This document shows positions 8,894 through 39,148 of a stretch of DNA of 64,000 nucleotides, one piece after another. Within the stretch, counting starts at the first letter, position 1. Every line of letters begins with the position of its first letter. The stretch lies in the NCBI RefSeq assembly GCF_030719295.1, contig NZ_CP120997.1, forward strand, positions 2,604,001 through 2,668,000. Reading direction: 5' to 3'. Position numbers and translations under genes: made by a program. The notes under the pieces are model-generated. The model was not told the origin of the DNA and made no database searches. It saw nothing but the letters and a program-made list of their open reading frames with translations. Source of the DNA: Streptomyces sp. Mut1 (GTDB lineage: Bacteria; Actinomycetota; Actinomycetes; Streptomycetales; Streptomycetaceae).

Positions 8894-8926
8894 ACGTGCT
8901 TTCAGGTCCGACGGGGAGGTTGGGAC

Positions 8927-15267: not shown

Positions 15268-15324
15268 TCCCAGGGCCGCACCTCCCCACTCAGGTCCCAG
15301 CTCTGTGTGCGCGAGGAAGGCTTC

Positions 15325-16854
15325 ATGCCGCCGTATCAGCCCTCTGCCGACTGGCAGTTCGAGGTCCCCACCACCGGCACCAAGCGGCTCCCGCCCGCCG
15401 CGCGCTACGTCGAGTCGCTGACGCACCAGGGGTACGGGTTCGAGGCGGCCATCGCCGACCTCGTGGACAACTCGATCGACGCGGGCGCCCGTAACGTCGT
15501 CGTCAGCCTCCTGCGCGACGAGGACCGCCTGGTCAGCCTGCTCGTCATCGACGACGGCCGCGGCATGGACGACGCGGCTCTGGACACCGCGATGACGGTG
15601 GGCGGCCGCCAGGGTTACGACGACGCGGCGCTCGGCCACTTCGGCGCGGGGCTCAAGGCGGCGTCGCTGTCGCACGCCGACTCGCTCACCGTGATCAGCC
15701 GTACCAGGCGCAGCCCGTCCACCGGCCGCCGCTGGCTGACGGCCCGTGCCCAGGCCGACTTCACCTGCGACATCGTCGATCCGGGGTACTGCCAGGACCT
15801 CGTCGACCGCTACGACGGCGTCATCCAGTGGCAGGGCACGATCGTGCGCTGGGACCGGGTCCGCGCCTTCGACACCATCACCACCGGCCAGGCCGACCGC
15901 TACCTCAACGACGCGATCGAGAAGCTGGAGACCCACCTGGGGCTCTACCTCCACCGCTTCCTGGCCCGCGACGGCTTCAACATCGACATCGTGGTCGAGG
16001 ACGTGCGGACGAAGGAGGAGCTGGACCACCGCGGAGTCGAGCCCATCGACCCCTTCGGCTACCGGATACCCGGCCGGGCCGGCTTCCCCCGTACGTACAC
16101 CGCGCCGGTCGAGGGCGTCGGCGGGGTCGCGCTGACCGCGCACATCTGGCCGCCGAAGTCGCCGCTGGTCAGCTTCCGGGGCATCGGGCCGCTCGCCGAA
16201 CGCCAGGGCTTCTACATCTACCGCAACGACCGCCTCGTCCAGGCGGGCGGCTGGAACAGCACCCGCAGCCCGGAGGGCCACCTCGCGCTCGCCCGGATCG
16301 CCGTCGACCTGCCGTCCGCGCCGAACGACGTCTTCAACCTCACGGTGAAGAAGGACGGCGTCACCGTCACCCCCGCGTTCGCCCGGGGCCTGGAGCAGGC
16401 CGTGGACGCCACGGGGCACGGCTTCGCCGCGTACGTCCAGGAGGCCGCGCTCACGTACCGGGAGGCGGCCAGGCGCGCCACCGAACCGCAGCGCAAGGCC
16501 GTCCTCCCGGCCGGGAAGGGGATGGACCCGAAGCTGCGGCGCACGCTGCGCGACGAGCTGCCGGAGCTGGAGGGCGAGGACCCGATCGCGTTCCGCTGGG
16601 ACAGCCTGCCGGCGGACGTGTTCTTCGAGCTGGACCGGGAGAACCGCGAGGTCCGGCTCAACAGGACGTACCGGCAGGTCCTCAACGGGGGCCGGCGCGG
16701 GGGCCTGAACGACGCCCCGGTGATCAAGAGCATGCTCTATCTGATGGTCAACGAGATCTTCCAGAAGGAGCGGGTCCGGGCCGTCCACACCGACAACGTG
16801 GCGCTGTGGAACAGCGTCCTGGTCACGGCGGCGCGCTGCGAACTCGACCGCTGA
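15325..16854 (+). CDS. MORC/MutL-like GHKL ATPase of a restriction-type defence system
   Basis: A 509-residue ATPase with the three GHKL boxes of MutL, Hsp90 and MORC proteins: IADLVDNSIDAG (residues 46-57), VIDDGRGMDD and LGHFGAGLKAASLSHADS. GHKL ATPases of this group clamp or remodel DNA when they bind ATP. MutL-like proteins of bacterial restriction systems were described as the relatives of eukaryotic MORC ATPases (Iyer, Abhiman and Aravind), and they travel with Z1 ATPases, Vsr-like nucleases and C5 methylases, exactly the genes that follow here. The ATG at 15325 is five bases after GAGGAAGG. It is the first gene of the block and 102 bases before the Z1 gene. Confidence 0.88.
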   Translation: MPPYQPSADWQFEVPTTGTKRLPPAARYVESLTHQGYGFEAAIADLVDNSIDAGARNVVVSLLRDEDRLVSLLVIDDGRGMDDAALDTAMTVGGRQGYDDAALGHFGAGLKAASLSHADSLTVISRTRRSPSTGRRWLTARAQADFTCDIVDPGYCQDLVDRYDGVIQWQGTIVRWDRVRAFDTITTGQADRYLNDAIEKLETHLGLYLHRFLARDGFNIDIVVEDVRTKEELDHRGVEPIDPFGYRIPGRAGFPRTYTAPVEGVGGVALTAHIWPPKSPLVSFRGIGPLAERQGFYIYRNDRLVQAGGWNSTRSPEGHLALARIAVDLPSAPNDVFNLTVKKDGVTVTPAFARGLEQAVDATGHGFAAYVQEAALTYREAARRATEPQRKAVLPAGKGMDPKLRRTLRDELPELEGEDPIAFRWDSLPADVFFELDRENREVRLNRTYRQVLNGGRRGGLNDAPVIKSMLYLMVNEIFQKERVRAVHTDNVALWNSVLVTAARCELDR

Positions 16855-16956
16855 TCCACGCGCCGGCGTCCCCCGCCCGGCGTCCCGCCTACCCGGCTTC
16901 CGTCCCCGTCCCCGTCCCCGTTCCGTTCCGATCCGATCCGAGAGAGCCGCCCCGCC

Positions 16957-19887
16957 ATGACCGACCCCCTGTTCACCCTGCACGGCGATGTCCTGGCCGC
17001 GATGCGGCGGGGACCCAGGCCCTTCGCGAAGCTCGTCCTCGCGCTCTCCGAGGACGACGACGACCCCGCCGACACCAGGCTCTCCCACTTCAGGGACCGC
17101 GTTCTCGCGGCCGGCCTCGGCGACGGGCTAATCACTCTGTGGCACCGTACGCTGACCGCCTGGGACCTGGTGGAGCAGGCGGACTGGTCGGCGGCACCGG
17201 CCCGTACGGACGCGCGCCGCTCGGACACGTACGAGCGGCTGGGCTTCGGAGTAGGCCTGCGCAAGGCACTGGACAGCGTGGTCCCGGTGTTCAAGGAGCC
17301 GGGACCGACGGTCATCAGCAAGGAGTTCGTCTCCTGGTACTCGCGCGACGCGGCCGCCGCGCGCGCGTTCTACTGGCCCGCCTACGAGCGGCTGCTGCGC
17401 CGCAAGGGCTGGCCGGACACGGCGGTCTCCGGACTCGACGAGGCGAGCCACGCCGTGGTCGAGCGCCTCGCGGACCCCACCCGCCCCGAGGCTTACGGCG
17501 CGCGCGGCCTGGTGGTGGGTTACGTGCAGTCCGGCAAGACCGCCAACTTCACCGGGGTCACCGCGAAGGCCATCGACGCCGGATACCGCCTGGTCATCGT
17601 CCTCGGCGGCACCCTGAACCTGCTCCGGGGCCAGACCCAGCGCAGGCTGGACATGGAACTGATCGGCCAGGAGAACATCCTGCGCGGCGCCGATCCGGCG
17701 GACCCGGACGCCCTGGTCGGCATCGACTACCAGGACGACGCGGACTGGCCGGAGAAGTTCGTCAGCCACGGCGGCCGGCCCTCCGCCCTCGGCGCCTTCG
17801 ACATCGAGCGCCTCACGACCCGCGACGACGACTACAAGAGCCTGCTGAACGGCATCCGCGCCCTCGAATTCGAGAAGCAGTCCCGTACCGAGCCGCTGTA
17901 CGCACCGGCCAACCTGCACCACGCGGCCGCCCGGGTCATGGTCGTGAAGAAGAACAAGTCCGTGCTGGCCAAGCTCATCAAGGACCTGAAGAAGATCGGC
18001 CCGATCCTCTCCGAGATCCCCGCGCTGATCATCGACGACGAGTCGGACCAGGCATCGGTCAACACGACGGACCCGAAGAAGTGGGAGGAGGGCAAGGTCG
18101 CCCGTTCGGCCATCAACGGCCAGATCTCCCAGCTGCTCGGCCTCCTGCCTCGCGCCCAGTACGTCGGCTACACCGCGACCCCGTTCGCCAACGTCTTCGT
18201 CGACCCGGGCGACGGCGAGGACATCTTCCCGCGCGACTTCCTCATCTCGCTGCCCCGCCCGGCCGGCTACATGGGCGTCCAGGACTTCCACGACCTGGAC
18301 ACGGACGGGGGCACCGCCGAGGAGACCCACGTCCGCGGTGTGTACGAGGACACGGGCGACCGCCTCCAAGAGGCTCTGGACGCCTTCGTCCTCACGGGCG
18401 CGCTCAAGCTGTACCGCGCCGACCTCGGGGTGCCCGCAGGACCGTTCCGCCACCACACGATGCTCGTCCACGAGTCCGTACGGATGGCCGAACACACGGC
18501 CCTCGCCCTGCGCATCAACTCCATGTGGCACCAGGCCGCCTACACCGGCCGCGAGGGCCACGACCGCCTGGCCGCCCTCCTCGCCTCCGACTTCCACCGC
18601 TTCGCCGACGACGGCCTGCCCATGCCGGAGTCGTACGAGGACCTCAGGGGCCACGTCTCGCGCGCCCGCCGGCTCATCAACGCCGGCGGCACCCCCGTCC
18701 TGGTCGTCAACGGCGACACCGAGCGCGACTACGACCAGCCCGACCTGGACTTCGAGCGCACCCCCCACGTGTGGAAGATCCTCGTCGGCGGCACCAAGCT
18801 CTCCCGGGGCTTCACCGTCGAGGGCCTCACGGTCACCTACTACCGCCGCACCACCCGGCAGGCCGACACCCTGATGCAGATGGGCCGCTGGTTCGGCTTC
18901 CGCCCCGGCTACCGCGACCTGGTCCGCCTCTACATCGGCCGCGAGGAATCGCTGGGCAGGACGACGACCATCGACCTGTACGAGGCCTTCGAGGCCATCT
19001 GCCGCGACGAGGAGACGTTCCGCGCCCAGCTCACCCGCTACGCCACCCCGATCGACGGCAAGCCCCAGGTCACCCCGGCCCAGATCCCCCCTCTGGTCTC
19101 CCAGCACCTCTCCCTGATCAGCCCCTCGGCCCGCAACAAGATGTTCAACGCGGAACTGGTGGAGATCAGGTCCCCGGGCCAGTGGGTGGAACCGACGGCA
19201 TACCCGGTGGGGGCGGCGGAACTGCGGGGGAACGTGGAGGCTTGGGGGGCGGTGTTGGGGGCGTTGGACCGGACCCGGGTCACCCTGCGCTGCTCCGCCG
19301 CCGGGACCGGTCGGGACGACAGCTACGAGGCGGTGCTGGGCACCATCGACCACAGCACGCTGCTCGGCGTCCTGTGCGACCTGAAGTGGTCCGTTCCCGC
19401 CCAGTTCTCGCCCCATCTCCAGTCCCTGGTCTCGGCGGGCGAGACCGGCGACGGCATCGACGACTGGCTGGTGATCGCCCCGCAGCAGACATCGGGACGG
19501 GGGGCGGGGGCGAACATTCTCGGACACGGTCCTCTCTCCCTGGCGCGTCGTACCCGACGTCGCGGCGACCTCTTCGGAGCGATCAGCGAGCCGAAGCACC
19601 GCGGGGTCGCCCTGCGGATCGCCGGTGCGCTGAAGGACTCCGGCGACCCCCTGGTCGAATCGCTCGTCCGGGAGCGGCGAGGAGTCGTGGTCCTCTACCC
19701 CCTGGTCGAGGCCGAGCCGCGGCTCGGGCCCGGCGGCACGATCGACCCCGGGGACGTGGTCATGGCGTTCGCCCTGGTCGCACCGGCCTCGGCGAAGGCG
19801 GGACAGCGGAACCTGGTGCGCTTCCGTGCCATTGATTCGAGCAAGGACGATTTCGCCGTCATCGATCGCGAAGAGGGTCGGCCGTAG
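16957..19887 (+). CDS. Z1-domain superfamily II ATPase
   Basis: A 976-residue P-loop ATPase of the Z1 type. Walker A is VGYVQSGKTANF near residue 188 and the Walker B region is LIIDDESDQAS near 357. The helicase motif III-like YTATPFANVF is near 406, and GGTKLSRGFTVEGL with DTLMQMGRWFGFRPGYRD lies near 610-650. Z1 proteins act as helicase-like motors in restriction-type defence clusters together with MORC ATPases. The preceding 102-base gap holds CCGTCC-type tandem repeats, and the ATG follows GAGAG. The stop lies close to the start of the Vsr-like gene. The name is secure; the biochemical step is inferred from the family. Confidence 0.9.
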   Translation: MTDPLFTLHGDVLAAMRRGPRPFAKLVLALSEDDDDPADTRLSHFRDRVLAAGLGDGLITLWHRTLTAWDLVEQADWSAAPARTDARRSDTYERLGFGVGLRKALDSVVPVFKEPGPTVISKEFVSWYSRDAAAARAFYWPAYERLLRRKGWPDTAVSGLDEASHAVVERLADPTRPEAYGARGLVVGYVQSGKTANFTGVTAKAIDAGYRLVIVLGGTLNLLRGQTQRRLDMELIGQENILRGADPADPDALVGIDYQDDADWPEKFVSHGGRPSALGAFDIERLTTRDDDYKSLLNGIRALEFEKQSRTEPLYAPANLHHAAARVMVVKKNKSVLAKLIKDLKKIGPILSEIPALIIDDESDQASVNTTDPKKWEEGKVARSAINGQISQLLGLLPRAQYVGYTATPFANVFVDPGDGEDIFPRDFLISLPRPAGYMGVQDFHDLDTDGGTAEETHVRGVYEDTGDRLQEALDAFVLTGALKLYRADLGVPAGPFRHHTMLVHESVRMAEHTALALRINSMWHQAAYTGREGHDRLAALLASDFHRFADDGLPMPESYEDLRGHVSRARRLINAGGTPVLVVNGDTERDYDQPDLDFERTPHVWKILVGGTKLSRGFTVEGLTVTYYRRTTRQADTLMQMGRWFGFRPGYRDLVRLYIGREESLGRTTTIDLYEAFEAICRDEETFRAQLTRYATPIDGKPQVTPAQIPPLVSQHLSLISPSARNKMFNAELVEIRSPGQWVEPTAYPVGAAELRGNVEAWGAVLGALDRTRVTLRCSAAGTGRDDSYEAVLGTIDHSTLLGVLCDLKWSVPAQFSPHLQSLVSAGETGDGIDDWLVIAPQQTSGRGAGANILGHGPLSLARRTRRRGDLFGAISEPKHRGVALRIAGALKDSGDPLVESLVRERRGVVVLYPLVEAEPRLGPGGTIDPGDVVMAFALVAPASAKAGQRNLVRFRAIDSSKDDFAVIDREEGRP

Positions 19888-19901
19888 GAGACTTGGCAGT
19901 G

Positions 19902-20333
19902 ATGAGTACCGCCAGACCCTCCTCCCCGGCCGTGTCCGCCCGCATGAGCCGACAGGCGAGCCGCGACACGGCGCCCGAAGTGGCGGTCCGGAAGCTGTTG
20001 CACGCCTCCGGCTACCGGTACCGCCTCAACGAGCGGGTGCCCCACATGTCCCGGCGGACGATCGACATCGCCTTCACGCGGGCCAAGGTGGCCGTGTTCC
20101 TGGACGGGTGCTTCTGGCACGGCTGTCCCGAGCACGCGACGCAACCGAAGTCCAACGCGCAATGGTGGCGGCAGAAGCTGGATCGCAACATGGCGCGGGA
20201 CGCGGAGACCACGGCGCACCTCGTCGCCGAGGGCTGGACGGTCCTGCGCTTCTGGGAGCACCAGGCACCGGTCCAGGTCGCGGAGAAGGTGGCGGAAGCC
20301 GTCGATCGGGAGAGGGGACGCGGGGGCTCGTGA
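19902..20333 (+). CDS. vsr: Very short patch repair (Vsr)-like DNA endonuclease
   Basis: A 143-residue Vsr-fold nuclease. Hallmarks are MSRQASRDTAPEVAVRKLLH, the catalytic strand RRTIDIAFTRAKVAVFLDG (Asp), and the zinc/His element CFWHGCPEH. Classical Vsr nicks T:G mismatches next to Dcm sites; in MORC-Z1 systems the Vsr-like protein is thought to be the restriction nuclease. AGGAG is 11 bases before the ATG at 19902 and 8 before an in-frame GTG at 19899, so either could be the start. The stop overlaps the methyltransferase start by GTGA. The protein looks complete. Confidence 0.9.
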   Translation: MSTARPSSPAVSARMSRQASRDTAPEVAVRKLLHASGYRYRLNERVPHMSRRTIDIAFTRAKVAVFLDGCFWHGCPEHATQPKSNAQWWRQKLDRNMARDAETTAHLVAEGWTVLRFWEHQAPVQVAEKVAEAVDRERGRGGS

Positions 20334-21286
20334 GCGGATTGCGGTTCGTGGACGTGTGCGCGGGGGCCGGTGGCTTGGCCCTCGGGCTGGAACAGGCCGG
20401 GTTCGATCCGGTGCTGCTGTTGGACAGGAAGCCCGTCGCCTGCGAGACGCTGGGCATGAACCGACCGCACTGGAAGGTCCTGCGGATGGACCTGCTGGAC
20501 TTCGTGCCGGACGAGCATCCGCACACGTACGACGTCGACCTGCTGTCCGCGGGGCTTCCTCGCGTGAAGTCGAGCGCGACGGCGGCAAGGGCCGAGACCG
20601 ACGAGGAGGAGGAGCTGCTCAAGGCGGCCGTCCTCCTCGCGCACTCGATCCAGCCGCGCGCCGTGATCATCGAGAACGTACCGGGGCTCGTCAACGTGGC
20701 GGCCTTCGAGCCGCTGCGCGAGTTCGTCCGGATGGAATTGGAGCACCTCGGGTACCGGCTCCACTGGTTCGTCCTGAACGCAGCGGATTTCGGGGTGCCG
20801 CAGGACCGTAAACAGGGCGTGGTCGTCGCCCTCAAGGAGCGGTACTTCGACCGATTCCGACCGCCGGTGCCCACGGTGAAGGATCATGTGTCGGTGGGCA
20901 GAGCGCTCCGGTGTTCCATGGCTGCTCGCGGGTGGAGCGGCGCGGACGCCTGGGCGGCCGGGGCGGCCGCCGTGGCGCCGACTCTGGTCGGCGGCTCGGA
21001 CAACCGAGGCGGCGCCGACCTGGGGCCGACCGGCACGAAGGCCGCCTGGGCGCGGATGGGGGTCAACGGCGGGGCGCTGGCCGACGAGGTTCCCGGCCCG
21101 GAGGATGACAACACCCAGGGGCTGATCAAGCTCACGGACGCGCAGGCGGCGCTGTTGCAGGGCTTCCCGGCGGAGTGGCGCTTCGCGGGCCGGAAGACGG
21201 CTCGGTATCGACAGATCGGGCATGCCTCGCCGCCGGCGGTGGGGAGGGCGTTGGGCGCGGCCGTCGCCGAGGCGTTGCGCGATTGA
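20330..21286 (+). CDS. C5-cytosine DNA methyltransferase-like protein lacking the catalytic Cys
   Basis: A 318-residue protein with the C5-methyltransferase fold: motif I FVDVCAGAGGLALGLEQAGF, motif VI IIENVPGL, motif VIII PQDRKQGVVVAL, and near the end GFPAEW and motif X QIGHASPPAVG. In motif IV, where active enzymes read GGPPCQ, it reads SAGLPRVKSS, so Arg stands at the Cys position. The codon is CGC, one transition from TGC. It probably cannot methylate alone and may be a regulatory or DNA-binding partner of the intact enzyme next door. The GTG start overlaps the vsr stop. The assignment to the family is secure; loss of activity is inferred. Confidence 0.85.
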   Translation: MSGLRFVDVCAGAGGLALGLEQAGFDPVLLLDRKPVACETLGMNRPHWKVLRMDLLDFVPDEHPHTYDVDLLSAGLPRVKSSATAARAETDEEEELLKAAVLLAHSIQPRAVIIENVPGLVNVAAFEPLREFVRMELEHLGYRLHWFVLNAADFGVPQDRKQGVVVALKERYFDRFRPPVPTVKDHVSVGRALRCSMAARGWSGADAWAAGAAAVAPTLVGGSDNRGGADLGPTGTKAAWARMGVNGGALADEVPGPEDDNTQGLIKLTDAQAALLQGFPAEWRFAGRKTARYRQIGHASPPAVGRALGAAVAEALRD

Positions 21287-21338
21287 GAGCGCGGGAAGCG
21301 GTCGGGAGCGGAGCCAAAGCCGGCTACACTTCCATCCC

Positions 21339-22556
21339 ATGACCCCCAGGCCCCACCCATCACTCCCACCTGCAAGTTTCCGCATCGTGGACTTGTTCGC
21401 GGGCCCGGGTGGCCTCGATATCGCGGCCACGATCATGGGAGTGGAGAGCATCGGGGTCGAGTGGGACGACCCGACCCGCGCGACGCGCGTCGCGGCCGGC
21501 CTCCGCACCACCACGGAGAAGGACGTCGCCGCGCTGGGCCCGTGCGACCCGGAGGTGAAGGACGCGAACGTCCTCACCGGAGGCCCGCCCTGCCAGTCGT
21601 TCTCCGTGGCCGGCAACCGGGAGGGCCACAAGGCTCTGGAGGACGTGAAGCGGCTGGCCGGCTGCCTGGTCGGCGCCAGGAACCGCGAGGCCTTCGACGA
21701 GGCCTGGAACGCGGTCGAGCGCGAGACCGACTCCATGTCCGACGCGCGTACGGGGTTCGTGCTCCAACCGCTGCGTTGGATCATGGAGGCGAAGTTCAAG
21801 CGTGGCAGGCCCTACGAGGTAGTGGTGCTGGAACAGGTACCCACCGTGCTGCCCGTGTGGAAGCACTACGCCGAGCTACTCAACAGCATCGGCTATGCGG
21901 CCGGCGCCCATGTCCTTCAAGCCGAGGCCTTCGGCGTTCCACAGACACGTCGGCGTGCCGTGCTGATCGCCCAGTGGGACCCGGAGCACACGGGGCGGGA
22001 CGTGTACTTCCCCGAGGCGACCCACCAGCGATACCGCAAGACGGCCGAACAGCAGGGCTCCGCTCTGTTCACCCCGCCCAAGAGCTCCACGGACGGCAGG
22101 AAGAAGCCCTGGGTGTCCGTCGGGGACGCGCTCGCCGCCACTCGCCCCCGCGACTTCGTCCTGGTCTCCAACTACGGTTCCGGCGGCGACCCGAAGAACC
22201 GGGGGCGCCGCACCTCCGAGGAGCCGGCCGCGACGATCACCGGCAAATTCCGCCGCAACCGACTGTTCCTCCTGAAGGAGAACGAGGCGGGCGAGAAGGA
22301 GATGGGGGAGGAGTTGGAGCGGCTCTCGCTCGAAGAGGGCGGGCTCCTCCAGTCGTTCCCCGCCCGCTATCCGTGGCGGTCCACCGACGTGGCCCAGCAG
22401 ATCGGAAACGCCATTCCGCCGCTCCTCTCGCTGCATATCCTCAGCAGTGCGCTCCGGCTCCCGCCACCCGACGAGGAGTTGATCAACAAGCTGGCGTCAT
22501 GGGAGCCGAAGCGCTTTGATACCCAAGCGGACGAGGTCGTCGCCGAGGACGTGTGA
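21339..22556 (+). CDS. DNA cytosine C5-methyltransferase (active-site intact)
   Basis: A 405-residue methyltransferase that places a methyl group on C5 of cytosine. Motif I is FRIVDLFAGPGGLDIAA, motif IV the catalytic GGPPCQSFSVAGNR, motif VI VVLEQVPTVLP (ENV replaced by EQV), motif VIII FGVPQTRRRAVLIA, and motif X QQIGNAIPPLLS. The target recognition region lies between residues 240 and 340. The ATG at 21339 is 52 bases after the Cys-less relative. It likely protects host sites from the Vsr/Z1/MORC machinery. It is the last gene of the block and ends 21 bases before the convergent DUF6339 gene. Confidence 0.93.
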   Translation: MTPRPHPSLPPASFRIVDLFAGPGGLDIAATIMGVESIGVEWDDPTRATRVAAGLRTTTEKDVAALGPCDPEVKDANVLTGGPPCQSFSVAGNREGHKALEDVKRLAGCLVGARNREAFDEAWNAVERETDSMSDARTGFVLQPLRWIMEAKFKRGRPYEVVVLEQVPTVLPVWKHYAELLNSIGYAAGAHVLQAEAFGVPQTRRRAVLIAQWDPEHTGRDVYFPEATHQRYRKTAEQQGSALFTPPKSSTDGRKKPWVSVGDALAATRPRDFVLVSNYGSGGDPKNRGRRTSEEPAATITGKFRRNRLFLLKENEAGEKEMGEELERLSLEEGGLLQSFPARYPWRSTDVAQQIGNAIPPLLSLHILSSALRLPPPDEELINKLASWEPKRFDTQADEVVAEDV

Positions 22557-22577
22557 GCTGTTCGGTCCCATGGGAAT

Positions 22578-23480
22578 TCAATCCCTTGCAGCCCCCGAGG
22601 GGGCCCTGTCACGCAACGGCGCCTCTGCGGAGAATTGCTCGAACATGCGTGAAAGGATCTCGAGGGAGGAGCGCCGGACGGTGCCGTCGTCCGGCCCGTC
22701 GGGAAGCCTCTCCCACGGCACGGCGGCGGACTCCGCATCCGCGATCCACTCAGTGAGCGCGTCGTGACGGGGCGGATCGTCGGGCGCAATCACCTCGTAC
22801 ATGAGTGTGCTCCCCGCTACGTTGACCGCCGTGCACAGCGCGTTGACCCGATCACCGAGGCGCGTGGCTCCGCCGTCCGCAAGTCCCTTGAGGACCGATA
22901 CCAGGGCCAGAGCGGTGGGCTTGTGATCGATGGCGTCGAGTCGAAGAGCAGTATTGATCATGTCTTGGTTACCGCACGCGATCTCCGCAGGCCTGTAGTC
23001 GGGCCCGTCACGGAACATTTCGGCCGACCACCAGAGCCGGGCGAATGCCTGGCTGTAGTGCGGGCCCACGAATCTGGCGCTGTTGGTCTTCTTGGGAGAG
23101 CCGTCGCCGGCCGCGCCGGGCGGTAGGTGCCGCCACAGAACGAAGTCCGGTGCCACGGCCAGGGCGAGGAAGTTCCAGAGCCCGGCATCCGCCGCCTCCG
23201 CGCGTGTCAGGCGCAGAGTGGCGTGCAGCCGGGGCGCCAGCCAGGCGTCGGCGTCGGTCCTGACCGCGTCGAACCTGCGCATCGCCTCCTCGACGATCTC
23301 GCGTACGGCGTCGACGTTCCACCGAACGGAGTCGTCCTGGATCGGCCTGCTCGCGCGGAGGAGCGCCACATGCGGGAGCGCCTCCTGACCGGCACGCACG
23401 CCGTGGGTGAGAAAGCCCGTGGCACGGGCCCCGGGAAGAAGAGCGAGACGTGCAGGAATCTCCGTGTGTGTACGGTTCAT
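22578..23480 (-). CDS. DUF6339-like protein of a three-gene defence-island operon
   Basis: A 300-residue soluble protein, probably of the DUF6339 family, judged from the stretch WNVDAVREIVEEAMRRF and APRLHATLRLTRAEAADAGLW. It is mostly alpha-helical, with no membrane segment or catalytic motif that I can name. It is the last of three minus-strand genes (HTH-GHKL ATPase, unknown, this) with a one-base overlap (TGATG) to the gene before it. It ends 21 bases from the convergent methyltransferase gene. The function is unknown; the family name is from memory and should be treated as moderate. Confidence 0.6.
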   Translation of the reverse strand: MNRTHTEIPARLALLPGARATGFLTHGVRAGQEALPHVALLRASRPIQDDSVRWNVDAVREIVEEAMRRFDAVRTDADAWLAPRLHATLRLTRAEAADAGLWNFLALAVAPDFVLWRHLPPGAAGDGSPKKTNSARFVGPHYSQAFARLWWSAEMFRDGPDYRPAEIACGNQDMINTALRLDAIDHKPTALALVSVLKGLADGGATRLGDRVNALCTAVNVAGSTLMYEVIAPDDPPRHDALTEWIADAESAAVPWERLPDGPDDGTVRRSSLEILSRMFEQFSAEAPLRDRAPSGAARD

Positions 23481-26532: not shown

Positions 26533-26851
26533 CGACCCCACTCCTCTTCGTGCCGAGGGGGGACACGGTAGCACCGCAGTTGACGTCAGCGCTTTGTCAA
26601 ATGTTACTTGACGCCCATGTCTCGTTCGAGCGCCAGCGGAGGTTGTTTTTATTCTCCCCTGTTCTGATCGGCCAGCCGATCAGCGCGTGCTACGGTTCTT
26701 CTCGGCAACTCCCAACCCGGTCAGGACCGTTGAGGGATGCGCCTCCTGAAGGCGGCACAGCCATGCCCTCATGTTCGATCACAAAGCGGTCTTTACGTGC
26801 GCCAACCGGTCAAGAGCACTCGTTGGCACACCCAAGGGAGGGGAACCCCAC
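26533..26851. promoter_or_regulatory. Divergent regulatory region inside the defence island
   Basis: This 319-base gap between the HTH-GHKL gene (-) and the small Thr/Val-rich gene (+) is much more AT-rich than its surroundings, with a T-rich run near 26642-26655. It holds the TGACGTCA palindrome (26581-26588), an inverted repeat GTCAA/TTGAC (26596-26600 and 26608-26612) and CTGATCGG/CCGATCAG (26664-26671 and 26676-26683). The last is directly upstream of a TACGGT -10-like element at 26691. These are good candidates for operators of the HTH-GHKL protein. No convincing gene lies here. Confidence 0.55.
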
Positions 26852-27217: not shown

Positions 27218-27337
27218 ACCCTCCGCTGCCCCTCCACTCAGCAGCTCCACGTCGTCCCACAGGGTGCCGGCATGCGTGCCGGCACCCGCTCCCCCCGCGC
27301 ATCCTCGGTTCGTTCTCCTCTTCGAGACAGGTGCCCC

Positions 27338-30300: not shown

Positions 30301-32137
30301 GGCCCGCCTCGGCCAGGCAGGCAGCAACTACAAGATCCAGCGCTGTTCCGAACTCGCTCACGTCATGCGGACCCCCATGGGGAGCAAGCAGAAGCCCCTC
30401 GAATTCGCGAGAAAGGCCCAGACCCTCTACGTACTGGACTCGCTCGACCGTCTCCAGGTGCTCCGGGCCGCCGACGAGGAGTTCAAGTGGGGCTTCGGAC
30501 CCGCGGGCTGCAGCCAGGCACTCGCCCTCCAGGAGAGGCAGGAGCACGACCAGGCTCTCCTCAAGCGGTTGCGCGCCGTGCGGGAGGCCGAGAGCGTCAT
30601 TGACAAGATCGCTCTGCTCATCGGTGAGGAAGCCCTGCGTGGCGGGCTTCCGCCCGGGCTGATGGAGAGCGAGATCCATGAGCACGGAAGCGAACCCAGC
30701 CCTCGGCGCGTCGCCGAGATGGCATTCAACGCACACGGCGAGGCGATTCTGCGGATCCACTCGCACGATCTCACGCTGCATTTCCCCACCCGGGCACCCA
30801 CGTCCTTCAGCGGTGGCCAGAAGGCCTTGCTCTTCGTCACCGACCTCGGCTTTCCGGACTCCTTCGCCGGCGCCCAGGTGCCCTCCCTGGATGCTCGCGT
30901 GGAGGTCGAAGGCCCGACCGAGTTCCCCGCACTGCACCCGTACCAGGAGGACCTCGCTCAGGCACTGTTGGGTCTGCTGAAGAACCCGATGCCCCAGCGC
31001 GGCATGCTCAGCCTGCCGACGGGGGCCGGTAAGACGCGTGTCACGGCGGAAGGCGTGATCCGCTGGATCCGGGACCGCGAGAATCTTCCGGGCCCGGTCC
31101 TGTGGATCGCTCAGACGGAAGAACTGTGTGAGCAGGCCGTGCAGAGTTGGAGCTTCGTCTGGTCGAAGGTGGGCCCGGAGCACCCTCTCGTCATCAGCCG
31201 TTTGTGGGCGTCCAACGAGGCCACACCGGTCGACGGGCGTCCGCATCTGGTCGTCGCGACCGACGCGAAATTGGACCGCTGCATGGCGGAGGAGAAGTAC
31301 GCCTGGTTGCGGGACTCCACCTCGCTCGTCATCGTCGACGAGGCACACACCGCGATGTCCAAGCGCTACACACGTCTTCTCGAACAGCTCGGCCTCACGC
31401 ACCACCGGACCAGCCGTCACCTGGTCGGTCTGACCGCGACCCCGTACAAGAACAACGCGGAGCTGACCCGGCTCCTGGTCCAGCGGTTCGGCAACCGCCT
31501 GGACACCGGGGTCTTCGACGGAGATCTGTCGGTCGCCATCAAATCCTTGCAGCACATCGGCGTACTGGCCCAGGTGAAGCACCGAGAGCTGCAGGGCGCC
31601 GCGATCTCCCTGACAGCCGACGAGCGTGCGCAGTCCGAGACGTTCGCCACCTTGCCCAAGGGTGCGGAACAACGACTTGCGGAGGATCACGACCGCAGTC
31701 AGCGCATCGTCGACGAGATCGCCGCCATGCCTTCCGACTGGCCGGTTCTGGTGTTCGCCACCTCCGTCGCCCACGCCAAACTGCTCGCCGCCAAGCTGGG
31801 TGACAGAGACATCAAGGCCGCGGCCATCGACTCGAGCACACCCACCAACGAACGCCGCCAACGGATCAACGACTTCCGCAAGGGCAGGACCCAGGTACTC
31901 ACGAACTACGGTGTGCTGACCCAGGGCTTCGACGCCCCGGCCACCCGTGCGGTGGTGGTCGCCCGCCCGACCTACAGCCCCAACGTCTACCAGCAGATGA
32001 TCGGACGTGGTCTGCGTGGCCCGAAGAACGGCGGCAAGGAAAACTGCCTGATCCTGAACGTGCGGGACAACATCACCAACTACGGCGACGACCTCGCGTT
32101 CACCGAATTCGAGTACCTGTGGGACGAGGCCCGGTGA
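27338..32137 (+). CDS. Sacsin-like GHKL ATPase fused to a DEAD/DEAH helicase
   Basis: A 1599-residue two-engine protein. The N-terminal 250 residues are a sacsin/Hsp90-type ATPase (LYELVQNAADEIAA near residue 58, GRFGVGVKSVLSVSD near 115). About 900 residues without named motifs follow. The C-terminal 400 residues are an SF2 helicase: Walker A LPTGAGKTRVTAEG near 1227, VIVDEAHTAMS near 1333, LTATPYKNN near 1366, motif V LTNYGVLTQGFDAP and motif VI QMIGRGLRGP near 1555. It heads a run of four genes of which the next two overlap, ending with DrmA- and DrmB-like proteins, so a role in DNA-targeting defence is likely. The ATG at 27338 is at the end of a 120-base leader. Confidence 0.87.
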   Translation: MPDRQLADRSLPPVIDTVMRQSATVLKTYQVDPGLIQEHANGERRITQGGYGERQLYELVQNAADEIAAEPGGKLHVVLTDTHLYCANVGAPVTPEGAETILRMGVSRKRGGQIGRFGVGVKSVLSVSDSPQFFSGNGAFGFGFDKHWSAAEIAQALGRQGDLDMDTPVLRMARPLDVEQERADDDTLSKLLNWATTVVRLPLVPGAAERLARDIVGHRGRNGRETEAFPSHFQLFSPHVGELFLHDRRSMPQVRREISIEHKGTYRTLKEVASGTKQTTEQWKVFSASYSPTGEAEESAGELHGRPVLEVSWAMPEYTVRNGLYTVPVGKGAFWAFFPTKYEVSLTGILNAPWKTNEDRQHLLDGSPFNRELLEVAARLVVDTLPSLVPAEDPAAYLPLLPGRTKEKLNWADEYLLRRVWEYAAESPSLPDQNGVLQRPRELFITPPNLDKDWVRIWAEYDGRPLGWLHPSVDASDTTVRRGKMNHILDQAGKTPESVKDWLEALVSDGSAEASTHAIEILSLMVLKDQAGRLRGDSETTAAARRAKIVLTEEHGMVAPVAGEIFHRTSADALRDDMVYVHPSISERPEMSRHLHNIGIRVADAQGRFEGVLDQGFAGYDTDAWTNFWVLLRSAGGSAQTERIRTKVPKPSGTLRVRTLDGRYRPMRDCLLPGPVVPADGSRDNSVTVDMGFHDSDKSVFRDFGLFDRPTGGHLPQGETWFEEYRQAVHEQHLRSLPSTAPRPNISRLVVEGAAPLGPLHLLPVLSDEGRAAFVSALPPSDISQHWQMRYGTNANTRTPVVSPLRWMISKHGLVRTSMGLTRVFEAVGPQLKSFDSVLPVAEISDETARRLGMPTTTDDVPARRWGKLLDLLLKSEDDAFIGHAYALLHRVGFEFPEDVPTRCRVGASWEGRPDNEIAVATSAPEFNELVREKLPALLVAEKADAASAKAMIEDWGMLKVSDVISREIDAVKIGRASSLLEEFPTVKARLGQAGSNYKIQRCSELAHVMRTPMGSKQKPLEFARKAQTLYVLDSLDRLQVLRAADEEFKWGFGPAGCSQALALQERQEHDQALLKRLRAVREAESVIDKIALLIGEEALRGGLPPGLMESEIHEHGSEPSPRRVAEMAFNAHGEAILRIHSHDLTLHFPTRAPTSFSGGQKALLFVTDLGFPDSFAGAQVPSLDARVEVEGPTEFPALHPYQEDLAQALLGLLKNPMPQRGMLSLPTGAGKTRVTAEGVIRWIRDRENLPGPVLWIAQTEELCEQAVQSWSFVWSKVGPEHPLVISRLWASNEATPVDGRPHLVVATDAKLDRCMAEEKYAWLRDSTSLVIVDEAHTAMSKRYTRLLEQLGLTHHRTSRHLVGLTATPYKNNAELTRLLVQRFGNRLDTGVFDGDLSVAIKSLQHIGVLAQVKHRELQGAAISLTADERAQSETFATLPKGAEQRLAEDHDRSQRIVDEIAAMPSDWPVLVFATSVAHAKLLAAKLGDRDIKAAAIDSSTPTNERRQRINDFRKGRTQVLTNYGVLTQGFDAPATRAVVVARPTYSPNVYQQMIGRGLRGPKNGGKENCLILNVRDNITNYGDDLAFTEFEYLWDEAR

Positions 32138-34050
32138 CTCCTCTCCTTTCCTCCGAGCATCGGCTCACACCCGAGCAGCAAGCCGTGGTGGACCAGCCCT
32201 GGGACGCCCGCGTCCTGGTCACGGCCGGAGCCGGCGCCGGGAAGACGTACACCCTGGTCCGACGGCTCGACGTGTTGGTGGAACGCGAGGAACTGGAAGC
32301 CGGAGAGATCCTGGTCCTCAGTTTTTCCCGCGCCGCCGTTCGCGAACTCACCGAGCGGATCGAGCGACACGCCGTCGCCGCGCAGCGCATCCGTGTGCAG
32401 ACCTTCGACGGCTGGGCCTCTGCCCTGCTGCACCGCGCCTACCCTGACGTGGACTGGGGGACGTACTCCTTCGACGGCCGTATCGAGGCAGCCACCGAGG
32501 CCCTCGACAAGGGAGCCGTCGAGGGCGGCGAGTACGTCCCGGCCCATGTGATGATCGACGAGGTCCAAGACCTCATCGGCGTCCGTCGGGAAATGGTCGA
32601 GGCGTTGCTCGACCGCTTCCAGGAGAACAGCGGGTTCACCGTGGTGGGGGACTCCGCCCAGTCCGTGTACGGGTTCCAGGTGTCCGATCCGGATCAACGA
32701 GCGGAGGAGACCGACCGCTTCCTGGAGTGGGTGCGTGCCACGTTCGGTGAGGACCTGGTGGAAATCCATCTCGGCGACAACTTCCGTGCCCGAAGCGACA
32801 CGGCACGGATGGCCCTGCCCCACGGCTCCGAGTTGCAGCACCTGCCTCGGGACCGGACCGCCGCCCGGGGCGAGGCGGAGCGCATCCACGGCGACCTGCG
32901 CGCGCTGCTCCTGTCGACACCGAACTTCGGAAGCCTGGACGACCCGTTCGTGTTGGCAGCCCTGCGGGACTCTCCCGACTCGACCGCCATCCTGACCCGC
33001 GACAACGGCCAGGCGTTGTCGTTGTCCGGCACTCTGGCCACAGCCGGCGTTCCCCACACACTGCAGCGTTCGGCCCGCGAGCGCTCGGCCCCTGTCTGGA
33101 TCGCCGAACTACTCGCCTCGACCGGCACCACCGCTCTCACTCGGGAGCGCTTCGAGGATTTGCTGGTCGGCCTGCCCGTTCCCGTGGGTAGCGCGCCGGA
33201 GGCGCTGTGGCGATCGGTCCGGAAGGTGGCACGTGGTCGCGGCCGCGGAACCCTTGACGTCGTCGCGCTGCACCGGGCGCTCGCCGAAGGTGGACTTCCT
33301 GATGAGCTGACCGCCGCCCAGCCGTCCTCACTCGTGGTCTCGACCATGCACCGGGCCAAGGGCCTGGAGTTCGATCGGGTTCTGATCGTGGAGCCACGAG
33401 TATTGAAGGAGCCGGCCCCGGTCCGGAAGAAGAAGTACGACTACGACCCGTCTGCGGAGGCCCGGCTGCTGTATGTGGCCATGACACGGGCACGGGACGA
33501 TCTCTACGTCTTGGACGCACCCCCCTCGTGGCTCGTCCGGAAGGACAAGCGGGTCGACCGCTGGTATCTGGGCGGTCGCAGCACGTGGGCCCGGAACGGA
33601 ATCGAACTGATCGGTGCGGACGTGTCCCACGAGCAACCCCCAGGTACGGAGGGGTTGCGACAGAACGCCGAGGAGCTCCGGCGTCATCTCATGGCCGATG
33701 TCCACGCCGGCGTCGAAGCCGAGCTGGTCCTGCTGCATGGCATTCCCGTCGCCGCCGACCAGTCGCCGCCGTACGCGGTAGTGGTCGGCGGGCGGCGGAT
33801 CGCGGTGGTGTCCGAACGGTTCCGCACAGACCTGCACCGGTTGCTTCGCCGTACCTCCCACTCCGAGGTGGATCGGTGGCCGCCGCTGATCACCGGCCTC
33901 AGGGTCGAGTGTGTGGAGAGTGTCGCCGGCAGCCCCGCCGCGACCGAGGCCGCGGGCCTGGGTACGCACGGCGCCTGGGTCGCCCCGCGTCTGTGCGGCC
34001 TGGGACGCTTCCACTGGTACACGGACGGACCTGAGGTGAACACAGGATGA
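32134..34050 (+). CDS. UvrD/PcrA-like superfamily I helicase
   Basis: A 638-residue SF1 helicase. Motif I is VLVTAGAGAGKTYTLVRR (residues 29-46), Ia LSFSRAAVREL, II HVMIDEVQDLIG near residue 138, III VVGDSAQSVYGFQ, V STMHRAKGLEFDRVLIVEP near 408 and VI RLLYVAMTRARDDLYVL. It is shorter than UvrD or PcrA (about 720 residues), with small 1B and 2B domains. The GTG start overlaps the preceding stop by GTGA, and its end overlaps the next gene by ATGA. As part of this operon it probably unwinds DNA for the other enzymes rather than doing general repair. Confidence 0.9.
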   Translation: MTPLLSSEHRLTPEQQAVVDQPWDARVLVTAGAGAGKTYTLVRRLDVLVEREELEAGEILVLSFSRAAVRELTERIERHAVAAQRIRVQTFDGWASALLHRAYPDVDWGTYSFDGRIEAATEALDKGAVEGGEYVPAHVMIDEVQDLIGVRREMVEALLDRFQENSGFTVVGDSAQSVYGFQVSDPDQRAEETDRFLEWVRATFGEDLVEIHLGDNFRARSDTARMALPHGSELQHLPRDRTAARGEAERIHGDLRALLLSTPNFGSLDDPFVLAALRDSPDSTAILTRDNGQALSLSGTLATAGVPHTLQRSARERSAPVWIAELLASTGTTALTRERFEDLLVGLPVPVGSAPEALWRSVRKVARGRGRGTLDVVALHRALAEGGLPDELTAAQPSSLVVSTMHRAKGLEFDRVLIVEPRVLKEPAPVRKKKYDYDPSAEARLLYVAMTRARDDLYVLDAPPSWLVRKDKRVDRWYLGGRSTWARNGIELIGADVSHEQPPGTEGLRQNAEELRRHLMADVHAGVEAELVLLHGIPVAADQSPPYAVVVGGRRIAVVSERFRTDLHRLLRRTSHSEVDRWPPLITGLRVECVESVAGSPAATEAAGLGTHGAWVAPRLCGLGRFHWYTDGPEVNTG

Positions 34051-37000
34051 GCGGGTCGACCCACCAGGCGCACTACGAGGTGCGCGACTCGCTCCTCGAT
34101 GCCCTGCGGCAGGACCTGCTCGGCCCGGTGGGTGGTGTGGACGAGGTGCTCACGGATGACGCGCCGATCACCATGTACCCGGTCGGCGTGCTCTTCCCGC
34201 GCTCACGTCCGAAATCCCCCGACGACCCGGCTCGGCCCGAGCCGACCGAGCTGGAGTCCGAGCGGGACGGCCTCGACGCGGTATCGCTCGGAGTCCGTCG
34301 GGATATCGAGGACGGCCCGGGCGATCTGGGTGTCTCGCTGGCGAACGTCCGGATGCCCTCGTCCATCGGCCTGACCTTCGCCGTGGACCCGACCGTTTCG
34401 GCCCGGCTCCGACTGACCGTGACCGCCGCCGTCTACCTCCCCGAGGACGCCGAAGGGAAGCCGGTGGACGCGAAGCGGAGCGAGGCGCGGAGCACGAAGG
34501 CCCAGCGCGAGCATTGGCGGCGCTCCGACCTGCGGATCGAACCCGTCGATGTGGATGTCACCCGCCCCGGACTGCTCGCCCCCTTCGTCCTTCACCCGGG
34601 TCTGCAACTACGAGTGCTGGTCCGCCCCCGGTCCACGTCGGACGGGACCGTGACCGTGACCGCCACGGTCGTCAACAGCCTCGAAGTGGGCCGATTCGAC
34701 CTACGCGACGCGCACTGCTTCTACCAGCCCGTACTCACCGTCACAGCGGGAGACGGCACCAGCCCGGTGTTCGTGGTTCGACCGGCCACGTCGGGCGCAG
34801 TCGACTCCGAGCAGGCACTCAGCAGGCTCGTGCATCGCCATGCGCCGAGCTTCGCCATCGGCCACGGGTGCGCCGCGTACTGGGATTGGGAGCCGCCGCC
34901 GGTGGGGTCCGTAGCGCTGGACCGCCCGACAGTCACCGCCCTGCGCACCGAGTTCGTCCCCTCCCACGAGGTGCTGTTGACCGACTCGAACCCCGGGATC
35001 GACGACAAGCCACTCACCATGTACCGGCTGGGGACCGACCCGGCCCACGAGGTCGTGTCCGCCCTGCGCACCCTGCTGGACGGGTACGAGCGGTGGATCG
35101 AGACCCAGAAGGACCAGGCCGATCTGCTGTGCGGGACCGAGGACGGCGAAGCCGCGGCTGCTCAGGTCCTGTTGTGCCGGCAGGCCCTGCGTCGGATGCG
35201 TGAGGGCGTGGATCTGCTGGACGACAGCGAGCGACCGGACATCATGCACGCGTTCCGGCTGGCGAACCTGGCGATGGCGGACCAACGGGCACGCACCGTG
35301 TGGATCAAGACAGGCCGGTCCGGCCGCCCTGACGAACATGCCGGGCGGTGGCGGCCCTTCCAGCTCTCCTTCATGCTCCTCTGCCTGGCCGGAATCGTCG
35401 ATCCCGATCACGACGACCGAAAGATCTCCGACCTGCTGTGGTTCCCCACAGGTGGTGGCAAGACAGAGGCGTACCTCGGCCTGATCGCCTTCACCACGTT
35501 CTTCCGGCGGCTGCGGGACGGGGTGGCCGGAGCGGGCGTCACCGTGCTCATGCGGTACACGCTCCGGCTGCTCACGCTGCAGCAGTTCGAGCGAGCCGCG
35601 GCACTGATCTGCGCCATGGACCTGCTCCGGGCCGCCGACCCGGCACGGCTGGGTCACGAGGAGATCTCCATCGGCATGTGGGTGGGCCGCTCGGCAACGC
35701 CCAACACCCTGGCGGCCGCCGACGCAAAACTGGCTGACCTCATGCGGAACGACGCCTTGCAGTTGCAGACGGAGAACCCGGTCCAACTGCGCACCTGTCC
35801 ATGGTGCGGAGAGCCGTTGCGTCCCCGTGACTACGCGGTCGACAAGGACGCGCAACGTATGACGGTGCACTGCCCGTCAGGAGCCTGCGACTTCGGCCGC
35901 GGGCTCCCGGTCCATCTCGTCGACGAGGCCGTCTATGCCCACCGTCCTACCTTGGTCATCGCAACGGTCGACAAGTTCGCCTCGATGCCTTGGCGGCCGG
36001 CGTCAGCAGCGCTCTTCAACCGGGACGTGGAGGGTGTTCGACCGCCCGAGCTCATCGTCCAGGACGAACTCCACCTCATCTCCGGCCCACTCGGCACCCT
36101 CACCGGCCTGTACGAGACGGCCGTGGACGCTCTGTCGAAACGCCCCAAGGTGATTGCCTCGACCGCGACCATCCGACGCGCCGACGAACAGGGCACCCGC
36201 CTGTTCGACCGCAAGGTGGCGCAGTTCCCGCCCGGCGGCCTGGACGCGCGAGACTCCTGGTTCGCCGTCGAGACGCCACGGGAGCGCAAGGCGGCACGAT
36301 GCTATGTCGGCCTGCTGACCTCCAGCACGAGTCAGGCCACCCTGCTGATCCGCGTATATGCGGCTCTGTTGCACCGGGCGCAGGCATATGACGCTCCGCC
36401 TGAGGTGAAGGACGCGTACTGGACCCTGGTCGGCTACTTCAACAGCCTGCGCCTGCTGTCGGCGGCGGAGCTCCAAGTACTCGACGACGTCCAGGAGCGG
36501 CTGGGTCACCTGGCGGCGAGGGACGGGGCCGATGTGCGCCGCGCGGACGCTCTCACAGAATTGAGCAGCCGCGCGAACGCCAGTGACATCTCTCGCAGGC
36601 TCAAGGACATTGAGCGCCGACTCCCCAGCCCCGACGCGCTGGACGTACTGCTCGCCACCAACATGATCTCCGTGGGTGTCGACGTCGATCGCCTCGGGCT
36701 GATGGCCGTGATGGGACAACCGCAGACCACGGCCGAGTACATCCAGGCGACGAGCCGAGTCGGACGCCAACACCCGGGCTTGGTCGCAGTCATGCTCAAC
36801 TCCACCAGGTCGAGGGACCGGTCGCACTACGAGGACTTCCAAGGCTTCCACTCCGCCCTGTACCGTGAGGTGGAATCCACGAGCGTCACGCCGTTCTCCG
36901 CGCGGGCCCGGGACCGAGGACTCCATGCTGTTGTGGTGGCCCTGGTCCGGCTGATGGTGCCCGCAGCACGGCCCAATGACGCGGCCGCGCGTGTGGAGGA

Positions 37001-37289
37001 CTTCCTCACCGACCTCCGTGAACAGGTCGGGGCGGCCTTGCTCGACCGAGTCTCGGCCGTCGAACCGGCTGAGGTCGAAGCCACCACCGCCGCCTTCGAG
37101 GCGTTCGTCGCATGGTGGCGGAGCGAGGCGTACGAGCGCCCGAACCTCGTGTACGAAGCGCCACGCGGGTCTCACGCCGCCGCTCTGTTGGCCAACTACG
37201 ACGACGAGTCGCCTGACGCGTCGCCGTGGAAGACCCTGTGGAGTCTGCGAGACGTGGACGCCTCGTCCACCTTCTTCGAGGAGCGCTGA
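34047..37289 (+). CDS. drmA: DrmA-like SF2 helicase (DISARM-related)
   Basis: A 1080-residue helicase resembling DrmA of the DISARM antiphage system. The N-terminal 450 residues are a specific beta-rich region. Then come Walker A LLWFPTGGGKTEAYLGL near residue 465, a zinc-ribbon-like CPWCGEPL with HCPSGACDF near 584-615, the DExH box IVQDELHLISGP near 668, ASTATIRRADEQ, and ATNMISVGVDVDRLGLM with IQATSRVGRQHPG near 870-905. The start overlaps the UvrD-like stop, and the DrmB-like gene follows two bases after the stop. DrmA normally acts with DrmB on incoming phage DNA. The symbol is by resemblance, not by search. Confidence 0.82.
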   Translation: MSGSTHQAHYEVRDSLLDALRQDLLGPVGGVDEVLTDDAPITMYPVGVLFPRSRPKSPDDPARPEPTELESERDGLDAVSLGVRRDIEDGPGDLGVSLANVRMPSSIGLTFAVDPTVSARLRLTVTAAVYLPEDAEGKPVDAKRSEARSTKAQREHWRRSDLRIEPVDVDVTRPGLLAPFVLHPGLQLRVLVRPRSTSDGTVTVTATVVNSLEVGRFDLRDAHCFYQPVLTVTAGDGTSPVFVVRPATSGAVDSEQALSRLVHRHAPSFAIGHGCAAYWDWEPPPVGSVALDRPTVTALRTEFVPSHEVLLTDSNPGIDDKPLTMYRLGTDPAHEVVSALRTLLDGYERWIETQKDQADLLCGTEDGEAAAAQVLLCRQALRRMREGVDLLDDSERPDIMHAFRLANLAMADQRARTVWIKTGRSGRPDEHAGRWRPFQLSFMLLCLAGIVDPDHDDRKISDLLWFPTGGGKTEAYLGLIAFTTFFRRLRDGVAGAGVTVLMRYTLRLLTLQQFERAAALICAMDLLRAADPARLGHEEISIGMWVGRSATPNTLAAADAKLADLMRNDALQLQTENPVQLRTCPWCGEPLRPRDYAVDKDAQRMTVHCPSGACDFGRGLPVHLVDEAVYAHRPTLVIATVDKFASMPWRPASAALFNRDVEGVRPPELIVQDELHLISGPLGTLTGLYETAVDALSKRPKVIASTATIRRADEQGTRLFDRKVAQFPPGGLDARDSWFAVETPRERKAARCYVGLLTSSTSQATLLIRVYAALLHRAQAYDAPPEVKDAYWTLVGYFNSLRLLSAAELQVLDDVQERLGHLAARDGADVRRADALTELSSRANASDISRRLKDIERRLPSPDALDVLLATNMISVGVDVDRLGLMAVMGQPQTTAEYIQATSRVGRQHPGLVAVMLNSTRSRDRSHYEDFQGFHSALYREVESTSVTPFSARARDRGLHAVVVALVRLMVPAARPNDAAARVEDFLTDLREQVGAALLDRVSAVEPAEVEATTAAFEAFVAWWRSEAYERPNLVYEAPRGSHAAALLANYDDESPDASPWKTLWSLRDVDASSTFFEER

Positions 37290-37291
37290 CC

Positions 37292-39148
37292 ATGGGACCC
37301 GTCCCGCCCCGCACCCGACGCCGCGGTCTCCCCTCGACGGCCGCACGTGCCGCCCGCAAGCTCGGGGAGATCCGTCGCGCCCAACTCATCACGACCTACG
37401 GTGTCGGTGCCATGATCGCGGTGGAGAACGAGTCCTTCCTCGTCCGTGGTATCGATTCGTGGGACATCTCCGAGGCACCCTTCATCTCTGAGCCCCGCTT
37501 GGCGTGGCAGTTGGGTGTCTCCGGGTTCCGGATGCCTCCGGCCCCCGATCCCGACTCGGCCCGGGACGGCGTACGAGCGGTGCGTTTCCCGGAGATGTAC
37601 TCATGCCCGCAGTGCCATCAATTGCAGCCATTTCGCAAATTCAATTCCTCCCGAGGGCGCGCCGAATGCTCGACGTGCCAGGAGAGCTTGGTCCCGTCCC
37701 GCTTCGTGATCGCGTGCACGCACGGCCATCTGGAGGACTTTCCCTACTGGAAGTGGGTCCATCGGGGCAACCGGACGGAATCCGGAAGTTGCGGAGGCCG
37801 ACTGACCCTCCATGCCAACGGCTCGACCGCGTCGCTGCGTGCCGTGCAGATCGGTTGCAGTTGCGGGGTGGAGAAGGTGTCCATGGAGGGGTCGTTCCGA
37901 CGCCAGGCCCTCCGGGAGCTCGGTATCCGGTGCGGTGGCCGTCGCCCGTGGCTCAGAGATGCTCCGGCCGAGGTCTGCCAGGAACCACCGCGCGCCCTCC
38001 AGCGTGGTTCCTCCTCCGTCTGGTTCCCTGTCATGTACTCGGCGCTGTCCATCCCGCCGTGGAGTCAGGGCATCGCCAAGCTCGTCGCGCCGCTCTATGA
38101 CGTCTTGAAGGACGAGGACACGGCTTCGATCAAGGCCTATGTGCGCATAAGAAAACTGCTGCTCCATCACCCCAAATACACGGACGAGGACGTGGTGGCG
38201 GAGGTGACCCGGAGGCGCACAGCCGAGAGCGCCGCTGTGGGGGAAGCCGATGACACAGAGGCTGCCAAGCGCGCCGGCGACTACCGACGAAGGCTCTACG
38301 AAGGCGAGTATCGAAGTCTGTCCAAGCCTCATCCCGAGGACGCCGAGGAGGAACAGGAATTCGTCTGCGAGCCCCCGATCGCTCCGACCGACGCCCTGCG
38401 CTCGTCGTTCGGACTCGCCCAGGTCATGCTCGTCAAGCGGTTGCGCGAAGTACGAGCGCTGCAGTCGTTTCGGCGTGTTGAGGAACCGAGCCAGGCGGAC
38501 TCCCAACTGCGCCAGGCAGCCATCTCACTGGCGCAGCCGACTTGGCTACCCGCGTTCGAGGTCAGTGGTGAAGGCGTGTTCCTTCGCCTCGACCAGGAGC
38601 GGCTTCAGACCTGGGAAAGGCAGCCGGAACAGGTCGCTCGCGCGACCCGGATCCGCCAGAACCACGAGAGGCTGCTGTCAGCACGTGCGGGCGACTCGGG
38701 CAATCCGGTTCCGCCTTCGCCCGCCACGCCTCGATTCCTCCTTCTGCACGCCTTGGCCCATGCCCTGATCAACGAATGGAGCCTGGACGGCGGCTATCCG
38801 GCCGCATCCCTGCGCGAGCGTCTCTACAGCGATGAGAACATGGCAGGCGTACTGATCTACACAGCGACCAGCGACTCCGCCGGAAGCCTTGGCGGGGTCG
38901 TTGCACAAGGTGAGCCGGACCGTCTGGCAGCTTCCCTCCGGGCCGCCCTGCACAGAGCGAGTTGGTGCTCGAACGACCCTCTGTGCATGGAGGCCGAGGC
39001 GAGCGGGGCGGACAGCCTGAACATGGCCGCTTGCCACGCCTGCCTGCTCCTTCCGGAGACGAGCTGCGAGAACAACAACATATTGCTCGACCGCGCTGCC
39101 CTGGTGGGAACACCCGACGGGCGGGTGCCGGGCTTCTTCGCTCTCTGA
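37292..39148 (+). CDS. drmB: DrmB-like DUF1998 protein (DISARM-related)
   Basis: A 618-residue protein with the build of DrmB. The N-terminal KLGEIRRAQLITTYGVGAM is followed by a zinc-binding region, CPQCHQ with CSTCQES and CTHGHLEDFPYWKW (residues 107-155). The C-terminal DUF1998 region has HALAHALINEWSLDGGYPA and a Cys-rich cluster, CSNDPLCME with ACHACLLLPETSCE, that may bind metal. It directly follows the DrmA-like gene, as in DISARM. The codons ATA AGA AAA near 38147 are rare here and hint at foreign origin. No DrmC, DrmD or drm methyltransferase gene follows; the next gene is on the other strand. Confidence 0.82.
   Translation: MGPVPPRTRRRGLPSTAARAARKLGEIRRAQLITTYGVGAMIAVENESFLVRGIDSWDISEAPFISEPRLAWQLGVSGFRMPPAPDPDSARDGVRAVRFPEMYSCPQCHQLQPFRKFNSSRGRAECSTCQESLVPSRFVIACTHGHLEDFPYWKWVHRGNRTESGSCGGRLTLHANGSTASLRAVQIGCSCGVEKVSMEGSFRRQALRELGIRCGGRRPWLRDAPAEVCQEPPRALQRGSSSVWFPVMYSALSIPPWSQGIAKLVAPLYDVLKDEDTASIKAYVRIRKLLLHHPKYTDEDVVAEVTRRRTAESAAVGEADDTEAAKRAGDYRRRLYEGEYRSLSKPHPEDAEEEQEFVCEPPIAPTDALRSSFGLAQVMLVKRLREVRALQSFRRVEEPSQADSQLRQAAISLAQPTWLPAFEVSGEGVFLRLDQERLQTWERQPEQVARATRIRQNHERLLSARAGDSGNPVPPSPATPRFLLLHALAHALINEWSLDGGYPAASLRERLYSDENMAGVLIYTATSDSAGSLGGVVAQGEPDRLAASLRAALHRASWCSNDPLCMEAEASGADSLNMAACHACLLLPETSCENNNILLDRAALVGTPDGRVPGFFAL

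Follow-up and report, generated by a model that had tools for sequence, protein, structure and literature searches.

The 64,000-nucleotide window analysed here, from Streptomyces sp. Mut1 (NZ_CP120997.1, positions 2,604,001 to 2,668,000; GCF_030719295.1), carries ten genes that probably form one conserved, modular, hybrid DISARM-like system, predicted from its sequence to defend actinobacteria against foreign DNA. An earlier note on this DNA had described three blocks that may cooperate; most of these apparent blocks would belong to a single unit. In such a system the motors and switches would be held constant, the DNA-methylation genes would be swappable, and a methylase homologue without its catalytic cysteine would be preserved. 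Support comes from shared gene content and order, co-occurrence statistics, the restriction of one DrmA clade, correlated divergence, a gene fusion in a related locus (L232) and the match of DrmA and DrmB to the solved DISARM DrmAB. In the published DISARM (PMC9142583), DrmAB is activated by 5'-overhang DNA and DrmC appears non-essential.

Gene content of the proposed system

Four forward-strand genes form the motor operon. SACH (27272-32137, likely start 27338) joins a sacsin-like GHKL ATPase and an SF2 helicase in one protein, with Pfam matches to ResIII (4.4e-18) and SACS (8.6e-7, below the SACS cut-off). Its helicase part matches RadD at 6.5e-32, and its motifs are kept across 124 aligned rows; the two sets of loci compared below partly overlap, and alignment rows are not all independent. 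SACH is followed by a GajB-like UvrD-family SF1 helicase (32119-34050; UvrD 4.9e-28, GajB 1e-28), by DrmA, a YprA-family SF2 helicase whose start overlaps the UvrD end at ATGA (34047-37289; PADLOC DrmA 4.6e-241, structure 7s9v_A 4.2e-172), and by DrmB, the DUF1998/MZB partner of DrmA (37292-39148, open frame from 37226; PADLOC DrmB 4.2e-71, 7s9v_B 1.5e-79).

The M33 trio lies on the reverse strand, with M33A transcribed divergently from the motor operon. M33A (24451-26574, likely start 26532) joins an XRE helix-turn-helix (HTH; HTH_3 7.3e-10) to a GHKL ATPase whose N, G1 and G2 boxes are kept across 113 aligned rows; its match to the PADLOC model PDC-M33A is partial (5e-22, covering 145 of 627 positions). 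M33B (23480-24454, likely start 24454) is a conserved protein with no Pfam or PADLOC match, for which a PDB search gave nothing meaningful (best E 0.72). M33C (22578-23480) is a DUF6339 protein (DUF6339 1.1e-10; PDC-M33C 3.3e-5).

On the forward strand before the trio stand a Vsr-type endonuclease (19902-20333; Vsr 5.8e-17) and two C5-cytosine methylase genes. The Vsr catalytic motif is kept across 101 aligned rows, and Vsr is the sole nuclease recognised among the island proteins scanned. The first methylase homologue, dcmA (20330-21286), lacks the catalytic cysteine (GLPRVK); the second, dcmB (21336-22556), has an intact GGPPCQ motif and a variable target-recognition region. The best PADLOC model for dcmB was a general type II methylase (2.9e-177), and its top DrmMII score was 2.1e-17. 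These profile and structure matches bear out the genes that the earlier note had recognised, namely GHKL ATPases, helicase motors, Vsr, methylases and DrmA/DrmB.

Distribution and gene order

SACH was found in 52 of 323 same-genus genomes at 43% identity or more across most of its length, and in 4 of 371 sampled phylum genomes, its own included, at E of at most 1e-60; only the best few candidates were scored per genome. We compared neighbourhoods from 46 of the 52 SACH genomes, window included (without G071, G139, G144, G153, G220 and G275), and from 78 named loci, which are the best of at least 504 relatives and not a census. Five distant SACH loci (~30% identity) were also fetched. Genes in relatives were called by a simple GC-frame script, and some were missed.

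All 46 genus loci carry SACH, UvrD, DrmA and DrmB in constant order, with dcmA and dcmB in 45 each, M33A, M33B and M33C in 44 each and Vsr in 41. In the co-occurrence check that the earlier note had proposed, these counts speak against a random association of the blocks. In the commonest layout Vsr-dcmA-dcmB comes first, then the M33 trio on the opposite strand, then the motor operon; in G051, G137, G286 and G293 methylase or Vsr genes are placed behind DrmB. The 78 best named loci hold UvrD in 77, DrmA in 76, DrmB in 75, M33A in 69, M33B and M33C in 68, dcmA in 69 (some more distant C5 methylases counted in) and dcmB in 59. They come from Streptomyces, Kitasatospora, Rhodococcus, Nocardia, Amycolatopsis, Actinomadura, Pseudonocardia, Nonomuraea and others. 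L138 and L166 run off the end of the sequence compared, and L181 showed no partner gene within 10 kb before or 2.5 kb after SACH. In L133 the upstream sequence resembles, by eye, a ribosomal-protein operon.

Among SACH genomes, M33A is present in 50 of 52 and dcmA in 51 of 52, and the window's DrmA clade is confined to them. The trio and methylases also recur alongside different motor sets. One locus each of types B, C and D (L211, L219 and L232) was scanned with Pfam, for L219 with its DUF4420 gene, and the remaining loci of these types were assigned by similarity and length. In L211 a single 1212-residue frame (7184-10822, reverse strand) combines the M33A HTH-GHKL protein with an MzaA-like sigma-70 factor (regions 2-4); L212, L214, L215, L216, L217 and L230 have long frames there, judged by position.

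Correlated divergence

Pairwise identities were correlated across the 41 loci holding all ten genes. The motor genes correlate with each other at rho 0.96-0.97 and with the M33 trio at 0.78-0.87. That trio and motors both co-occur and co-diverge favours the part of the earlier proposal that linked the blocks and speaks against their separateness. Vsr, dcmA or dcmB against the trio or motors gave rho of only 0.04-0.38. Between G109 and L177 the four motor genes are 95-97% identical and M33A, M33B and M33C 92-96%, yet dcmB is 42% and dcmA 59% identical.

A methylase without its catalytic cysteine

Of 292 C5-methylase sequences collected, 144 were flagged as Cys-less, two of these through errors of register. 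Once the set was clustered at 80% identity, the rows lacking the cysteine formed a single clade of 68 (Shimodaira-Hasegawa-like approximate likelihood ratio test, 97) amid active GVPC relatives, in a quick tree with motif IV columns kept in. PRVK or PRVR is the most frequent replacement; PRL, PRI, PRP, PRS, PST and ERV also occur. Motifs I, VI, VIII and X of dcmA are mostly retained despite the loss. Judged by these features, dcmA is a methylase homologue preserved long after losing its catalytic residue.

Across the 41 loci the dcmA target-recognition region is gapless, with a mean identity of 61% against 63-72% in the remaining segments, and that of dcmB is its most variable part (47%). This difference suggests that dcmB specificity is diversifying, as it seems, and that dcmA may read something constant, or nothing. 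In some loci dcmB has been swapped for C5 methylases that are only distantly related while dcmA persists. L232 (7049-8890, forward strand) encodes a fusion of DUF6339 with a C5 methylase that lacks the catalytic cysteine. The sister loci L231 and L233-L243 have frames that resemble it, judged by length (575-660 residues).

Weighing of alternative explanations

Several observations weigh against a single ten-gene system. The full M33 trio is missing in 2 of the 46 genus loci (G095 and G286) and in 10 of the 78 named loci, although for L193 and L195 the sequence compared does not extend to the upstream side; the trio is thus not always required. In L133, which has the trio and motors, the sequence covered yielded no methylase. 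SACH looks damaged in three genomes, being split into two frames in G171 and interrupted by a stop in both G220 and G275, and G137 and G224 have a broken dcmA. The identity correlation is 0.11 between dcmA and dcmB and 0.54 between Vsr and dcmA, so the Vsr-dcmA-dcmB cassette is loose, and it is not obvious that dcmA reads the site of dcmB. According to the available part of PMC9142583, DISARM restricts some phages without its methylation sites, so gating by a methyl mark may be loose. Some of the synteny could come from repeated insertion at one hotspot, and the co-occurrence tests take no account of relatedness.

That three functionally unlinked defence systems merely piled up in one hotspot is improbable, given the recurrence of trio and methylases with different motor sets, the rarity of SACH without M33A or dcmA, the strong correlation of trio and motor identities, and the fusion linking DUF6339 to the Cys-less methylase. 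Nor do we expect a canonical DISARM that lost DrmC and acquired neighbours, a reading with a small chance of being right. DrmA and DrmB are unmistakable, being homologous over most of their length to the Serratia DrmAB structure (7s9v), and a C5 methylase lies alongside; PMC9142583 lists DrmMII as a cytosine methylase. DrmC, however, gave only weak matches in the island (PADLOC, 0.0044 and 0.0074), both in the non-conserved DUF5919 gene. The one DrmC profile run genome-wide found nothing in this genome, yet matched in 5 of 14 control genomes. Neither DrmD (class 1) nor DrmE (class 2) is among the best 25 PADLOC matches of each island protein. These loci instead have the constant SACH fusion and UvrD, the almost constant trio with its HTH-GHKL and DUF6339 proteins and, usually, Vsr and the Cys-less methylase, all of which set them apart from DISARM.

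Two further explanations, each unlikely though less so, concern the methylases. DNMT3L is a model for a scaffolding partner that stimulates a methylase, and dcmA might act in this way on dcmB, the pair being a two-subunit methylase linked to the motors indirectly. Most loci have Cys-less and active C5 genes side by side, an active one also came to light in L175, L194 and L232, where none had been listed at first, and the other dcmA motifs are mostly conserved. The exchange of dcmB beside a persisting dcmA makes a specific interface doubtful, and the fusion partner of the Cys-less methylase is DUF6339, not an active methylase. With a similarly low probability, Vsr-dcmA-dcmB could be an ordinary modification and mismatch-repair hitch-hiker, with motors that sense foreign DNA by structure alone, as proposed for DrmAB. 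The available part of PMC9142583 describes DrmAB as activated by DNA bearing a 5' overhang; methylase genes and motors diverge independently, and L133 fits this view. The presence of dcmA and dcmB in nearly all genus loci, and with several motor sets, argues against it.

Comparison with other systems

M33A and M33C partially match the A and C models of PDC-M33, a phage-defence candidate in PADLOC; one literature search that included this name listed no paper containing it. For MzaABCDE, no MzaA sigma factor, MzaD DUF4420 or MzaE is among the matches listed for the island; an MzaA-like protein occurs in L211 and an MzaD-like one in the related L219, where DUF4420, without a match in the island, is present. 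We equate the DUF4220 printed in the literature for the PD-(D/E)XK protein with Pfam DUF4420, which is our own reading. The corresponding section of that paper names neither DrmAB nor a sacsin gene, and it is the window that shows the version with a DISARM-like effector. The portion of PMC2292703 (Iyer, Abhiman and Aravind 2008) available to us, on MORC/paraMORC loci, does not note the DrmAB combination or a catalytically dead methylase.

ARMADA, in the part available of a preprint (PMC12458937; Bell et al. 2025), shares a YprA-family helicase (DrmA), and its type II has a GajB-like UvrD. It differs in having BrxHII and PglX homologues, which were not seen in the island: SACH gave a generic SF2 match to the BrxH model (2e-5), and PglX is not among the matches listed. 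The preprint refers in its Figure 1 legend to many DISARM-like classes that are uncharacterised, and its main text uses none of the terms GHKL, Hsp90 and Streptomyces.

Island extent and flanking genes

The whole exchanged island spans 15178-40795 (25.6 kb; no strand). A same-species strain, G155, aligns with the window as far as 15177 (96%) and again from 40796 (92%), and carries between these points 6.3 kb of other restriction genes (L255:2652-8574, forward strand), encoding a restriction-like PLD-SF2-DUF3427 protein and GmrSD, a type IV restriction protein. The island is thus swapped as one piece at a site that also takes other restriction genes.

The island also holds a MORC-type GHKL ATPase (MzaB-like; 15307-16854, forward strand, likely start 15325), which is an optional accessory and not part of the unit, and a further forward-strand gene after it (16957-19887). 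An HTH-DUF5919 gene (39179-39988, reverse strand; DUF5919 1.8e-5) was found only in the window and G070 among the 46 genus loci and in none of the 78 named loci; it is a passenger outside the conserved set. Upstream of the motor operon, a candidate small frame (26849-27217, forward strand) ending in a Val-Thr repeat was matched in 4 of the 20 relatives first compared, all close (67-78% identity in G204, G166, G245 and G274); some more distant loci have other small frames there.

NB-ARC/TPR (STAND-type) proteins flank the island on the left (9346-11883) and right (42783-44945), the latter kept at 96% in the same-species strain without the island. A small reverse-strand protein (45588-46115) matches peptidase inhibitor I66 (1.2e-12). 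Tandem-repeat arrays with a period of ~61 bases, which show up as laddered matches, lie at 54082-55804, 57305-58369 and 63032-63999.
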